Assembly (NCBI RefSeq): GCF_051622035.1
Contig: NC_135364.1
Location: 23,461,501 to 23,525,500, forward strand
Reading direction: 5' to 3'
DNA: 64,000 nt
Origin: Arctopsyche grandis
Lineage: Eukaryota > Arthropoda > Insecta > Trichoptera > Hydropsychidae
In this document: positions 48,402-54,800 of the stretch, piece after piece
How positions within the stretch are numbered: position 1 is the stretch's first letter
Layout: each line of letters opens with the position of its first letter
Position numbers and translations under genes: made by a program
Notes under the pieces: generated by a model
Seen by the model: the letters and a program-made list of their open reading frames with translations, nothing else
Told to the model about the DNA's origin: nothing
Databases searched by the model: none

Positions 48402-48463
48402 ATGGGGTGGAGAGGATTCACGTTTTTGTTTCTCTTCCTCAGCATAGCTGTTACGAATATAAA
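48402..48463 (+). CDS. alternative first coding exon of hexosaminidase (signal peptide)
   Basis: An acceptor-like TTTTTACAG precedes the ATG and the exon ends AA|GTAAGT. It encodes MGWRGFTFLFLFLSIAV plus four residues, a textbook cleavable signal peptide. Its phase (two bases left over) is identical to the phase of the other first exon at 51888-52003, so both can join exon 2 at 52278 and complete the same Lys codon. It would give a secreted enzyme of about 605 residues. No transcript evidence. Confidence 0.75.
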
Positions 48464-48684
48464 GTAAGTTTTTTTTGTATTTAATTTATATTTATTATGT
48501 GTAATTTATACTCATATTCTATGAAAACATTTCCGAACATTTTGCATAGTACATTTTATATACTCATTCATGTGTATCAATCCATTTTACGTCTCATATT
48601 TATATGTATTTTTAATGTATTTTATAATTACCTTTCTTGACGGTTTTTCCTAATGTGATTTGTTGTATGTATATCTAAATGTAT

Positions 48685-49196
48685 GGTTCGGTGATTATTC
48701 CGCACAAAGAGATCTCGCAAACGCCACTAAAATCTCGATCGCGGAACATCTGGCACCCGAAAATTCCATTCATCGAGCGTTACCCACACGAACTATCATA
48801 CTAAAGAGAACTCGAATTCCATATATTCGATATTTGCGATTTTCATAACAACGATTGTCGTGCGCGCGATCGCAATGTGCCAAATAATTCGTTTACCCTA
48901 AATGTATATAATATACATTTGTACATACATATATCATAATTGTTTGCGATTTTTATCCCATTCTTAGTTATAATTTTATAATGTATTATTCGGTTCGGTG
49001 ATTATTGGTCACAAAGCGCTCGCCCAAAAGTCACTAAAATCTCTATAACGGAACATCTGGCAGCCGAAAAGCCCATCATACTAACGATAACTATCGTACT
49101 AATGAGAACTCGAGTGCCAAATATTCCGTATTTGTGATTTTCATGGCAAAAATTGTATTTTGGGCAATTGCAATGTGACTAATAGTACAATTACCC
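48685..49196. mobile_element. two tandem MITEs, GGTTCGGTGATTATT family, copies 3 and 4
   Basis: 48685-48898 and 48993-49196, same orientation, about 95 bp apart, both in the first long intron of the hexosaminidase gene. Copy 4 has well-matched ends: GGTTCGGTGATTATTGGTCA and the complement of GGGTAATTG...AATAGTCACAT. Confidence 0.75.
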
Positions 49197-49514
49197 TATT
49201 ATTCTCCTCTTATTTATTACATTGCTTTGACAAACGTAGAAACAGTCGTACCAATCCCAACTAAAGCGTTTTGACAGATGCAAGCGTTTTCTTTTCGATC
49301 TTAATCAATTATTATGATTAATCGACATGTTTTTTGTTTTAATTAAACTTACACAAAACGATGAATATAGAATAGATAATCTATGGATAGATAAGCTTTA
49401 TGTATGTTTGTAGATGGAATGATAAATATAGATATTATCGATATAGATATTTGAGTTCATTTCACGTCGCTATCTTATATTGATTTATTTACATATATAC
49501 ATATGTATGCATGT

Positions 49515-49770: not shown

Positions 49771-50984
49771 TATATACTGAAAATTTCTAATACAGTGGAA
49801 TCCCGTTGTATCATTATCCTCGATCTATCGACTGAACATCACCCTTCACACATTTCACCCCGATTGATTGGTTTTGTCAGTAAAACTGTCAGTAGAGATG
49901 TTAAATAAAATAGAGGCGAATGGGAAATAATAGAAAATAGGGATTAAACTTATAAAATCATCCAGTAAAACGTTTTTCCGGAAGTAAATTGGGAATTTTC
50001 CCATCCTTGCAGAAAATGAATGTCTGATGACTAAACACGTTTTAAACATATAAAACACGAGTTTATCGTTTTTTTTTTTTAATTGGTCGTTTGTTTAGAG
50101 CAGTACTTCCCAATTAATTCCCGGCCCCTAAAATTATAAAAAACATATTTATAATACACATATTTGAAAACCTACGGCCCCCAATTTGCGAAACACTGAT
50201 TTAGAGCTCCTAAAAACGATGACTGTAATTTACTAAAAAAAATATAAAAAACCTGCATGGTCAAAAACGAAAGGACTCAAGCCTCTGATACACATATAAT
50301 CATACGTACATATATATAAAATATTAAAAACGTTGATAACAGTCTTCACATGCTACCCAAAATATTTAAAGAAAAACAAATAAAGAAGAAAATAAAAAAA
50401 AAACAGTAAAAAATATTTAGGTTGGTGCTCACTTTTGTCCGAATTTATCCCAATTTGTTGTTAAACAAAAGGATTTCTATATGTATTTAAATTACATATT
50501 TGCATCGTCATAATCATCAAAAATTCAATAGTATCACTCTTTTATGATCTACAGCTAGATTTATTCAATTTTCTAGAATTCATGCCTATCGATTCTATTT
50601 AATTTCATCTCTTCAATAATTCGTCAGATTTATTTATTTATCATCTTGTTCTTTTCTTAACTTACTAGTTTACTACATATTGACATTATTTTAATAAAAT
50701 ACATAGATTTTAATATTCGATATAACAAAAGCACAAATTGTATTTCAGTCAATACAGCGTTAAGTTATGTATTTGTGCTTTTCTTTCGTTTTATTGATAT
50801 TTACATATTATATTATACTTAAGCTATTTTTATTGTTTTAAACGTATAGCTTCCATCTAAGTCTATTGTTTTTTTTCTTTTCTTTTCATCAATTGTATTA
50901 CTTATTGTGGTTGAAATATTTACAATTACTGATAATCTTTTTATTATATGCAAAGGTAAAACTTTCGGCTTATATAGCTTATTT

Positions 50985-51431
50985 AATATAAAATTTCAAA
51001 AGACACTTTGTATGTAAGGTTTGGGTGGTAGAATCCGTGACGTTATCGAAAAATTCTAATTTTCTATTACGACGAAATCGATATCGATTTCGATTCAGTT
51101 TTCGATTCCGATTCCTTTTTCAGCTCCTGTTCCGGATTATTTTTTCAGTTCCGATTCCCTTATAAAAAAAAAAATCATTGTGTGTGTTGTGTAATTGCTG
51201 ATTGGCTGTCGTTAATTTTTTGTTTCGATTCATATAAATTTAATAAAAAAAAAAGATTTACTATATATGTTAATAGTTAAGTTAATAGTTAAGTCAATTT
51301 AATTAAAAAAACTGAATATTCAAATAAAATAAAACTATTAAAATAAATTTAATAAAATGTTTACTATTAGATAAGCCATGTTTAAGCGGTTTATATAACA
51401 AATACCGAGCGAAGCCGGGTAAAACCACTAC
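50985..51431 (+). mobile_element. Helitron (family H1), about 445 bp
   Basis: AAGACACTTTGTATGTAAGG near the start; TTTAAGCGGTTTATATAAC and CCGAGCGAAGCCGGG hairpin near the end, which reads CTAC rather than CTAG. Intronic to the hexosaminidase gene in its secreted form. Confidence 0.7.
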
Positions 51432-51887
51432 TTAATTATATTTTAATGCTATAATATTTTTACTGTGTTAACACTTATTATAATCTCTAAATCTTCTAAT
51501 GATTTGGGGATATATTATATGTACATTCATTTATAATCATCTGTGTCTTAGAAAAGCTGTTTGAACTATAGACATATGATGATAATACTCATCTTTTCAA
51601 TGATTAAGTGCATACAGCATGTAATTATACAATTTTTATCAGACAATTAAAAGCTTTAAACATTACATATATGTTTTAAAATTGCCGTTGTAAAAAAAAC
51701 AAATGTATGGCTGCAATAAAAATTCATCGTATAACTAATATCCATTAATCTAACCTTATTATTGACATTCGATTGTATTGATAACGATAACAATGCTAAC
51801 CTCATAAAACTTAAATTTATACGGATATTTGTTTGAATTTGAATAGATGTGATCAGTGCCAGCTGAATTTCAACTGTGTGTGGTATA

Positions 51888-54800
51888 ATGGCAGAAGAAA
51901 CATCTACCTTTTTGGGTGTTAAAGTTAAAACACTTGCAACGATCGGTACAGTCGTGCTGTTTGCTGCAGCATCAGCCGCAATAATAATAACAGTCTCTGT
52001 CAAGTATGTGTGCAACATTTTTGCAGTATTTGACGAATTTTTATCGTAATGCCAGAAAACAAACGGTTATATCCGTCGTCTATGTGAATTTAAATACAAA
52101 TTGTTTCCATTGGATAATCGACCGTATGTGCAATTATACTAACGAATATTTTCCTGTTTCTTGTAGTAATTTCTGCGGTTACTTTTGAATGTGCAATGTT
52201 GAATTTTGACTTGTTGCTGCGATGCTGTGGGACGATGTATTGGTTAAGATTTTGTATTGTTTTACCTACTTTTACAGGTCTGATGATGTCGTAGTCGAAG
52301 TTCCCAAGAATCCTGGCGATGCAGTGTGGAGATGGGAATGCATCAAGGGACAGTGCGAGAAGTTGCCCATCACGGATGGTGATCGAGACACCGCTTTGAG
52401 TCTCGGCGCTTGTAAAATGTTCTGCAATGAATTCGGTCAGTGCTAGTTTTAGTTGATACTTTTGATGTTACACAGTTGATTCGTTCGATGTTGATTTATT
52501 CGATGTTTTACAGGTAACATGTGGCCACGTCCAAGTAGGATTGAACTCGGGAATAATTTGGTGCACATGAACAGAAATAGTTTTGATATCTTACTGCAGA
52601 ATACTGACGGGCCTGCGGCTGATTTGATGAGATCTGCTATTCGTGTAATTGAACATTTCGCTTGTTTGTAACTCTGACTTGCAATTGCGATTGATTTAAA
52701 TGAACGATTTTATTTTTTTAGAGGTTCCGTACTCAATTGCAAAGCGTGATACCCCCTGGTGCTACAGTTACAGAAGGTGGCAGGACCGTATCTATCAACG
52801 TTAATATTAGAGATAACAGCTATATTGGTATTTTATTATTACTTGTTTTTGATTTATGTATTATGTTATAAAATTTGGAATGGGTTTTGATTATTCATTT
52901 AAATATTAAAGCTTTACAATTGGATACTGATGAAAGCTATACCGTGGAGTTGAGAACGTCGTCTGATGGTCGACTGACTGGAGATATTCGAGCTGAGAAC
53001 TTCTTTGGTGCCAGGAATGCATTGGAAACTTTGATTCAATTTGCTATTTTCGATGATATTCGATCTGAAATACAGGTAATTAAATGAAATGTTTATTACA
53101 CTTAAAATTGCTATCTTGATAATCTTATATAATAATATTATAATATAGATTGATAATCTTATATAATAATATTATAATATAGATTGATTATCTTATATAA
53201 TAATATTATAATATAGATTGATAATCTTATATTATATAATCTATCTTGATATATAAAAATCAATGTTTGTCTATCTGTCTGTCACGTATGTGTTCCCGGG
53301 TGACCGTGAAAAAGTCGAAAATGTTCGTTTACCATGCATACATATGAAAAACGGTTAGTATATATGCATATCAGTGGCGTTCGCTAAAAGTCTCTCTCCC
53401 CCCGTCATACATCCTCACTTAATTTGCGCGAGCAGGATACAACAGGAACAAAAGGAACAGGCTTTTCCTCCCGTATCCTGCGCGCGCACATTTAACAAGG
53501 CTGTATGACAAAAAGAGGGATAATTTCACCGCATGCCACTGATATATATATATATATATATATATATATATATATATATATATATATATATATATATATT
53601 TATATATATATATATATATTTATATATATATATATATATATATATATATATATATATATATATATATATATATATATATATATATATATATATATATATA
53701 TATATATATATATTATATATACATAGTACTGTTTACGATGCACCCTTTTTTTTTGATCTTTCGACTTACGATCTTTCGATTTTCGATCTTTGCCTTCCGA
53801 TATTTGCTTTTTCGACCTTTTCACTTTCGGTCCCGTGAGGTAGATCCATGTGTTCCCATACCATTCAACCGATTGCGATGAAACTTACATGAGTTATTGT
53901 ATGCATGTCTGTGATGGTTTCTGTAAAAAAAATCGCACAAAAACGGGAACCGACACTGAAAAACTCGAAATTAACGAGACACCACTATTTGAGTACATAA
54001 ATCATACTCAAATAGTGGTGACATAGTAGGTAGGATGGTTTTTAGTCAATTTTTTAATGGAGGAACCGTTTCAACAATGAAATGAGAAAAATTGGCAAAC
54101 TCTGATAGGAAACGATCGACTTGGAGTCACAAATATCCAAGTCTGACCAGTAGCATTCCAGATAATACACTCAGAATGAATTCTTTTCAATCGAGGACAA
54201 CTCACGGGATCGAACCCGACGCCTCTCGGTGCTAGGCAAAAGCCCAAGTATGTATTTATAATTTACGATTTTTATACATTTTCAGATGGTTGGTAGTCTT
54301 TTAGTCGAAGACAAACCGTATTATCCATACAGAGGTATTCTTTTGGACACCTCGAGAAATTTCTTCTCCGTTGATTCCATCAAACGAACTTTGGGTATTT
54401 ATTTACTTGATTAATATGGAATATTCCAACATATGGTACATTGTTAATGATTTGATAATTTTTAGATGCGATGGCTATTTCCAAGTTGAACACTTTCCAT
54501 TGGCATATCACAGACTCGCACAGCTTCTCATTTGTGTCGAAGTCCAACCCAAATCTTAGCAAGCTCGGAGCCATCACACCATACAAGGTAAAAATACTTA
54601 AAAATATTTCAAATAGCTCTCGAAGATGGGCATTTTTACATTTTGTTGAAATTTTTTTCAGGTTTATTCTGCTGCCCAAATCATCGATATCGTAAGGTAC
54701 GGATTGGAAAGAGGTATTAGAGTTATGCCTGAATTTGATGCACCAGCTCATGTAGGTGAAGGTTGGCAAGGAACCAATTTGACCGTGTGCTTTAGGGTGA

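Follow-up and report, generated by a model that had tools for sequence, protein, structure and literature searches.

Signal-peptide-like and signal-anchor-like leader exons on one predicted chitinolytic hexosaminidase gene of Arctopsyche grandis

A 64,000-nucleotide (nt) stretch of the genome of the trichopteran Arctopsyche grandis (NCBI RefSeq assembly GCF_051622035.1, contig NC_135364.1, positions 23,461,501 to 23,525,500 of the forward strand; hereafter the window, in whose own coordinates all positions are given) holds a GH20 gene on the plus strand at 48400–57023. As the original prediction had held, two alternative leaders stand on this one hexosaminidase, the first (exon 1a) signal-peptide-like and the second (exon 1b) signal-anchor-like. 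Both join the shared enzyme body in phase, and by their sequence they are mutually exclusive. Guided by these features, we tentatively propose, at a little under even confidence, that one group I NAG1/Hex1 gene uses two promoters and two mutually exclusive leaders to make a secreted and a membrane-anchored form of the same enzyme.

Exon boundaries were set by a search for GT and AG dinucleotides within 5 bases of hand-placed ends. For exons 2–15 this search left exactly one open path, from 52278 to the TGA stop codon at 57021–57023, and 13/13 introns among these exons run from GT to AG. The product is 605 amino acids (aa) long via exon 1a and 623 aa via exon 1b, each with one stop, the terminal one. 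The exons are listed below, with slashes marking splice or cleavage points.

48400..48463, plus strand: exon 1a; acceptor TTTTTACAG then AT; ATG at 48402; leader MGWRGFTFLFLFLSIAVTNI(K); donor AAA/GTAAGT; phase 2
51888..52003, plus strand: exon 1b; signal-anchor-like, with a 14-residue N-terminus and then 24 residues that are uncharged and for the most part hydrophobic; donor CAA/GTATGT; phase 2
52278..52435, plus strand: exon 2, common to both forms; start of the mature enzyme
52514..52644, plus strand: exon 3
52722..52827, plus strand: exon 4
52912..53075, plus strand: exon 5
54286..54394, plus strand: exon 6
54466..54587, plus strand: exon 7
54662..54796, plus strand: exon 8
54870..54975, plus strand: exon 9, coding for the V327/E328 equivalents
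55050..55225, plus strand: exon 10, coding for the catalytic D367/E368 equivalents
55317..55418, plus strand: exon 11
56342..56462, plus strand: exon 12
56541..56633, plus strand: exon 13, coding for the W490 equivalent
56713..56860, plus strand: exon 14
56939..57023, plus strand: exon 15, coding part; TGA at 57021–57023, AATAAA at 57167

Both leader exons lie where they had been predicted, each ends in AA/GT in phase 2, and the lysine codon of either leader is completed by the G at 52278. The coding part of exon 1a (48402–48463, 62 nt) consists of MGWRGFTFLFLFLSIAVTNI plus AA, and exon 1b (116 nt) of 38 codons plus AA. Scored against the donor consensus MAG/GTRAGT, the 1a donor matches at 8/9 positions and the 1b donor at 7/9; the gene's 13 other donors match at 5–8. 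When exon 1a was spliced to any AG in 51760–52003 and onward from the 52003 donor, an early stop arose in 10/10 cases, and a working mRNA built of these parts therefore holds one leader or the other. The predicted mutual exclusion thus stands by reading frame, as far as tested, and a cassette arrangement with 1a spliced into 1b is ruled out by the same 10/10 truncating AG sites, 52003 being the only donor tried. Two other origins of exon 1b were also rejected: an exonised repeat (no other match to the exon in the window at E 0.01) and an antisense gene across it (stop-to-stop frame at 51656–52066 on the minus strand, 120 aa from its first Met, no Pfam match).

The shared body contains both GH20 domains, with matches to Pfam PF00728 (Glyco_hydro_20, E 1.5e-95) and PF14845 (Glycohydro_20b2, E 1.4e-11). 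Among the 52 PDB sequences listed, the six closest score 825–834 bits with 3nsm (OfHex1 of Ostrinia furnacalis) at the top, and the next scores 261 bits; the six are presumably all forms of OfHex1. Identity to 3nsm is 350/569 aligned residues (61.5%), 12/12 aligned Cys of the 3nsm chain are kept, and so are 14/14 of the OfHex1 active-site and specificity residues checked, including the catalytic Asp-Glu pair (D367 and E368 in OfHex1) and the Val, Glu and Trp of the chitin-type +1 subsite (V327, E328 and W490). The roles of these subsite residues in OfHex1 are described in PMC3531433 and PMC3741120 (papers given by PMC number are cited here from excerpts). In the excerpts, group III enzymes carry Ile/Gln where OfHex1 has Val/Glu, and the V327G substitution enables OfHex1 to cut beta-1,2 links. 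Because the +1 subsite and the catalytic residues are kept, the gene is most likely a group I chitinolytic NAG1/Hex1, with hydrolysis of chitooligosaccharides predicted. Conservation of the V327, E328 and W490 equivalents led us to reject an FDL-type enzyme, a judgement that concerns these positions, FDL's own residues not having been compared. The earlier suggestion that a single gene fills both the NAG and the FDL roles is accordingly not supported: with a group I catalytic part, the form made from exon 1b would be NAG1 on a tether and not an FDL enzyme, and the comparison with FDL would hold for membrane topology only, failing on enzyme type because of the chitin-type +1 subsite. In a genome contig collection the best 80 of at least 591 relatives were all bacterial by title, at 25–31% identity, and none was used further; a viral contig collection gave 2 pattern matches and no relative, and an NCBIfam search gave no match.

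Next, the topology of the two forms was assessed by simple scales. In the 1a leader an Arg precedes a hydrophobic core of 12 residues with a mean hydropathy of 2.63, and cleavage scores are 5.0 after Thr18, 4.8 after Ser22 (just beyond the exon junction) and 3.3 after Ala16; this leader looks like a signal peptide that can be cleaved. Exon 1b encodes 24 uncharged residues whose best 19-mer scores 2.37, and its summed insertion energy is -1.16, whereas the best 1a 19-mer gives +3.96. The hydrophobic segment of 1b is preceded by VKVK and followed by KSDD, which favours an N-inside orientation, that is, a type II anchor. The 1b leader therefore fits a type II signal anchor, with a signal peptide possible, and on these scales an anchor appears nearly twice as likely as a cleaved signal.

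Where the transcripts might start was examined with arthropod initiator (Inr) and downstream promoter element (DPE) consensus sequences. The acceptor TTTTTACAG/AT ends 2 nt before the 1a ATG and by eye is as strong as the acceptors of the other exons; the start of exon 1a is therefore at 48400, and another exon probably comes before it in the transcript. The original prediction had overlooked this acceptor. The candidate elements upstream of the two leaders are as follows.

48023..48028, plus strand: candidate promoter P1; TCAGTT, A = +1 at 48025; DPE AGACG, 5/5, at +28 to +32
48025..48073, plus strand: tentative candidate noncoding exon of the 5' untranslated region (UTR), 49 nt; donor CCG/GTATAA, 5/9
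51853..51858, plus strand: weak candidate promoter P2; TCAGTG with its A at 51855, 33 nt ahead of the ATG of 1b; DPE 3/5

Across the window, a 5/5 DPE accompanies 2/92 TCAKTY sites on the plus strand and 1/109 on the minus strand, and 37/2000 shuffles of 47900–48401 (502 bases) hold an Inr with a 5/5 DPE. A looser initiator, TCATTG at 48258, likewise has a 5/5 DPE, the looser rule being satisfied by 57/2000 shuffles. An unspliced leader from 48025 would contain 8 upstream ATGs. Of the 12 candidate donors scoring 5/9 or 6/9, only the one at 48073 and another that would give an 8-nt exon avoid any upstream ATG. There is precedent for a noncoding first exon in an insect GH20 gene: the reading frame of silkworm BmGlcNase1 starts in exon 3 by rapid amplification of cDNA ends, and its two transcripts differ in the 5' UTR and share the same coding part (PMC7363074). 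On the 1b side no good acceptor precedes the exon and TCAGTG lies close by, which is why a second promoter is suggested there. A scan for ecdysone elements found 14 sites in the window at up to 2 mismatches, including those at 48253 and 48328, a raw count on which no argument here rests.

These features suggest how the two forms could arise. Transcripts from the upstream promoter (~48025) would join a short noncoding exon to 1a, and the signal peptide of their product would be cleaved and the enzyme secreted, as expected of the NAG1 of molting fluid. Transcripts from a second start near 51855, shortly before 51888, would begin with 1b and encode a type II protein with ~14 cytosolic residues and one span, whose catalytic domain, identical to that of the secreted form, would face the cell exterior or the Golgi lumen.

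Several observations weigh against this reading, and they fall into two sets. The first set bears on the fate of the 1b segment. Cleavage sites are predicted in its middle, SAA/I (4.3, after Ala31) and ASA/A (3.8, after Ala30), both within an AAASAA stretch, and 1b is possibly cleaved because these scores come close to those of 1a, whose best is 5.0. The insect NAG1 BmChiNAG is listed with a signal peptide only, and BmFDL-B with a membrane helix (PMC8998872). A signal peptide was found in all metazoan hexosaminidases examined but three, namely Hex3_Dm, Hex3_Dp and Hex2_Ag, which have putative signal anchors (PMC2492878). Insect Hex1 is, moreover, known as a molting-fluid enzyme (PMC3741120). 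Both leaders might be cleavable signal peptides, with two promoters that differ in timing or tissue and two secreted products, an alternative that we consider somewhat unlikely. What speaks for an uncleaved 1b is that its hydrophobicity runs on past those sites (IIITVSV) to 24 residues in total, behind a preceding region of 14 residues. Such a length is greater than is usual for a cleaved signal.

The second set bears on whether both leaders are real. It would be consistent with only one of them functioning, most likely 1a, with 1b a chance frame or rare noise, or else the reverse. Codon scores are weak for both, at 0.125 bits/codon for 1a and -0.046 for 1b versus 0.24–0.92 for the 14 other exons, on which the codon model was itself trained; open intron windows score at least as high as 1b in 133/633 cases and at least as high as 1a in 161/1686, and one antisense frame of 1b (0.134) exceeds its sense frame. 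This codon-bias test on the leaders is weak in either direction, because the composition of a hydrophobic leader is unlike that of the enzyme body. The candidate promoter P2 is matched by 188/2000 shuffles and is not significant alone. An unrelated plus-strand frame at 22229–22329 is at least as anchor-like, being more hydrophobic than 1b (12-mer 3.34, 19-mer 2.47), and two minus-strand frames pass a 12-mer value of 2.6. Over the whole window, a donor of at least 6/9 and a 12-mer of at least 2.0 are found in eight plus-strand rows, of which three are 1a and 1b, one (47683–47798) scores lower and four lie elsewhere. Anchor-like composition by itself is not unique in the 64 kb, and the case therefore rests on there being two in-phase leaders just upstream of exon 2. 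Within 47400–52277, 1a and 1b are the only phase-2 leaders of at least 15 codons with a donor of at least 7/9 (exon 1a accounts for two of the three rows of the scan, because its frame can also be read from an ATG at 48384, which precedes its acceptor). Among 1000 dinucleotide shuffles of that interval, a 1a-like hydrophobic leader with phase 2 and a good donor arose in 20, a 1b-like one in 3 and both in 1, at hydrophobicity thresholds fixed after the exons were seen. The GC content of exon 1b (41%) is also well over that of its flanks (27% and 34%), exon 1a having 40% and the coding sequence 43%. A single functional leader seems to us unlikely.

It is very improbable that a single promoter near 48025 serves both forms, with the leader selected by whether the noncoding exon is spliced to 48400 or instead joins an acceptor near 51847, for although an AG at 51845–51846 follows a T-rich stretch and, of the two candidate initiators examined, only that on the 1a side has a 5/5 DPE, the tract before 51847 has a pyrimidine fraction of 0.53 in the scored stretch and such an acceptor would leave 41 nt of unsupported 5' UTR in the 1b exon.

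The proposed pair of a secreted and a membrane-anchored NAG1 can be set beside several known systems. Hex3_Dm, Hex3_Dp and Hex2_Ag, the three enzymes with putative signal anchors, are presumably FDL enzymes. Like FDL, the 1b form would carry an N-terminal signal anchor, as predicted by hydropathy and with a cleavage site possible; unlike FDL, which belongs to a separate gene and group and modifies N-glycans (PMC3741120), it keeps the chitin-type +1 subsite. The catalytic part keeps the active-site and specificity residues checked in OfHex1, which, like the Bombyx mori enzyme BmChiNAG, is an insect group I NAG (chitooligosaccharidolytic beta-N-acetylglucosaminidase). For BmChiNAG, however, one signal peptide is given (in a Table 1 row labelled 'isoform X1', whose difference from other isoforms does not appear in the excerpt; PMC8998872), whereas the present gene has an additional leader exon that is anchor-like. 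TcCHT7, a group III chitinase, places an extracellular chitin enzyme on one N-terminal span, as is proposed for the 1b form; it stays bound to the membrane in insect cells, in vivo some of it is released, and the organization of new cuticle requires it (PMC5891080). It is a chitinase and not a GH20 enzyme, and the excerpt mentions no alternative leader exon. It is well established that alternative transcripts can switch a protein between a secreted and a membrane form (PMC1449889), and the arrangement proposed here resembles mouse variable membrane organization and Fit-1 with its alternative promoters (Fit-1 being known here from a title in the reference list of that paper only), in which one gene gives secreted and membrane products through alternative transcripts. 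The validated mammalian pairs in that excerpt are mostly secreted/type I, with no secreted/type II pair named, whereas the switch proposed here would be confined to the N-terminal leader and lead to a type II protein. Among the matches listed in open-licence text, as judged from titles and the starts of abstracts, no paper dealt with alternative leaders or an anchor exon in an insect NAG1.

Upstream of the gene, 44467–45486 is a tandem array of 90-nt units (nine overlapping 300-nt register copies) with several frames open, up to 319 aa from stop to stop, and a second array of ~71–72-nt units follows next at 45351–46056. Short interspersed repeats at 48685–49195, 59194–59375 and 61228–61396, with copies up to 94% alike and partly mutually inverted, are probably mobile elements of a non-autonomous kind; two of the copies fall within the intron that follows exon 1a, so that mobile-element-like repeats share an intron with exon 1b. 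The intron after exon 5 contains a TA-rich tract of ~170 nt, mostly (TA)n, at 53542–53713. Exons on the minus strand at 58300–59045 stand tail to tail with the NAG1 gene and resemble what we take to be a TMEM50-type small membrane protein, and minus-strand exons at 62190–63320 presumably encode LDL-receptor-type repeats. Farther off, a 960-aa stop-to-stop frame at 15607–18489 (minus strand) matches Exo_endo_phos over its first 245 aa, and the rest reads like what we take to be a reverse transcriptase, the two together pointing to a non-LTR retrotransposon frame. Pfam matches also mark neighbouring genes: BLOC1_2 at 22090–22527 (minus strand), a family X DNA polymerase (N-terminal part) at 25433–25879 (minus strand), a DEAD-box helicase, presumably RecQ-like, at 27525–28286 (plus strand), and a TFA2 winged-helix protein (TFIIE beta, with the core domain just below its cutoff) at 32706–33410 (minus strand). 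No Rfam family reached its gathering threshold, and a tRNA scan under the bacterial code found none.

The two-form reading allows us to suggest a role for each product. Where a CHT7-type membrane chitinase produces oligosaccharides, NAG1 tethered nearby could complete their breakdown. It is conceivable, if doubtful, that the second promoter supplies such a tethered chitinolytic enzyme, as the exo-acting partner of CHT7, for cell-surface chitin or gamete glycans, while the upstream promoter supplies the molting-fluid enzyme. Insect hexosaminidases have been noted as intrinsic plasma-membrane proteins, with deficient signal-peptide cleavage suggested as the cause (PMC2492878). An anchor leader exon, if real, would be a genetic answer to the presence of hexosaminidases in the sperm plasma membrane, for which that paper proposes incomplete signal-peptide cleavage. 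Loss of BmChiNAG blocks silkworm molting (PMC8998872), and there is active interest in OfHex1 as a pesticide target. If both forms exist, the reading of knock-down experiments would change, since RNA interference directed at the shared exons removes both. NAG1 is regarded as soluble and as belonging to the molting fluid; if a tethered form exists as well, chitin handling would gain a step at the cell surface.

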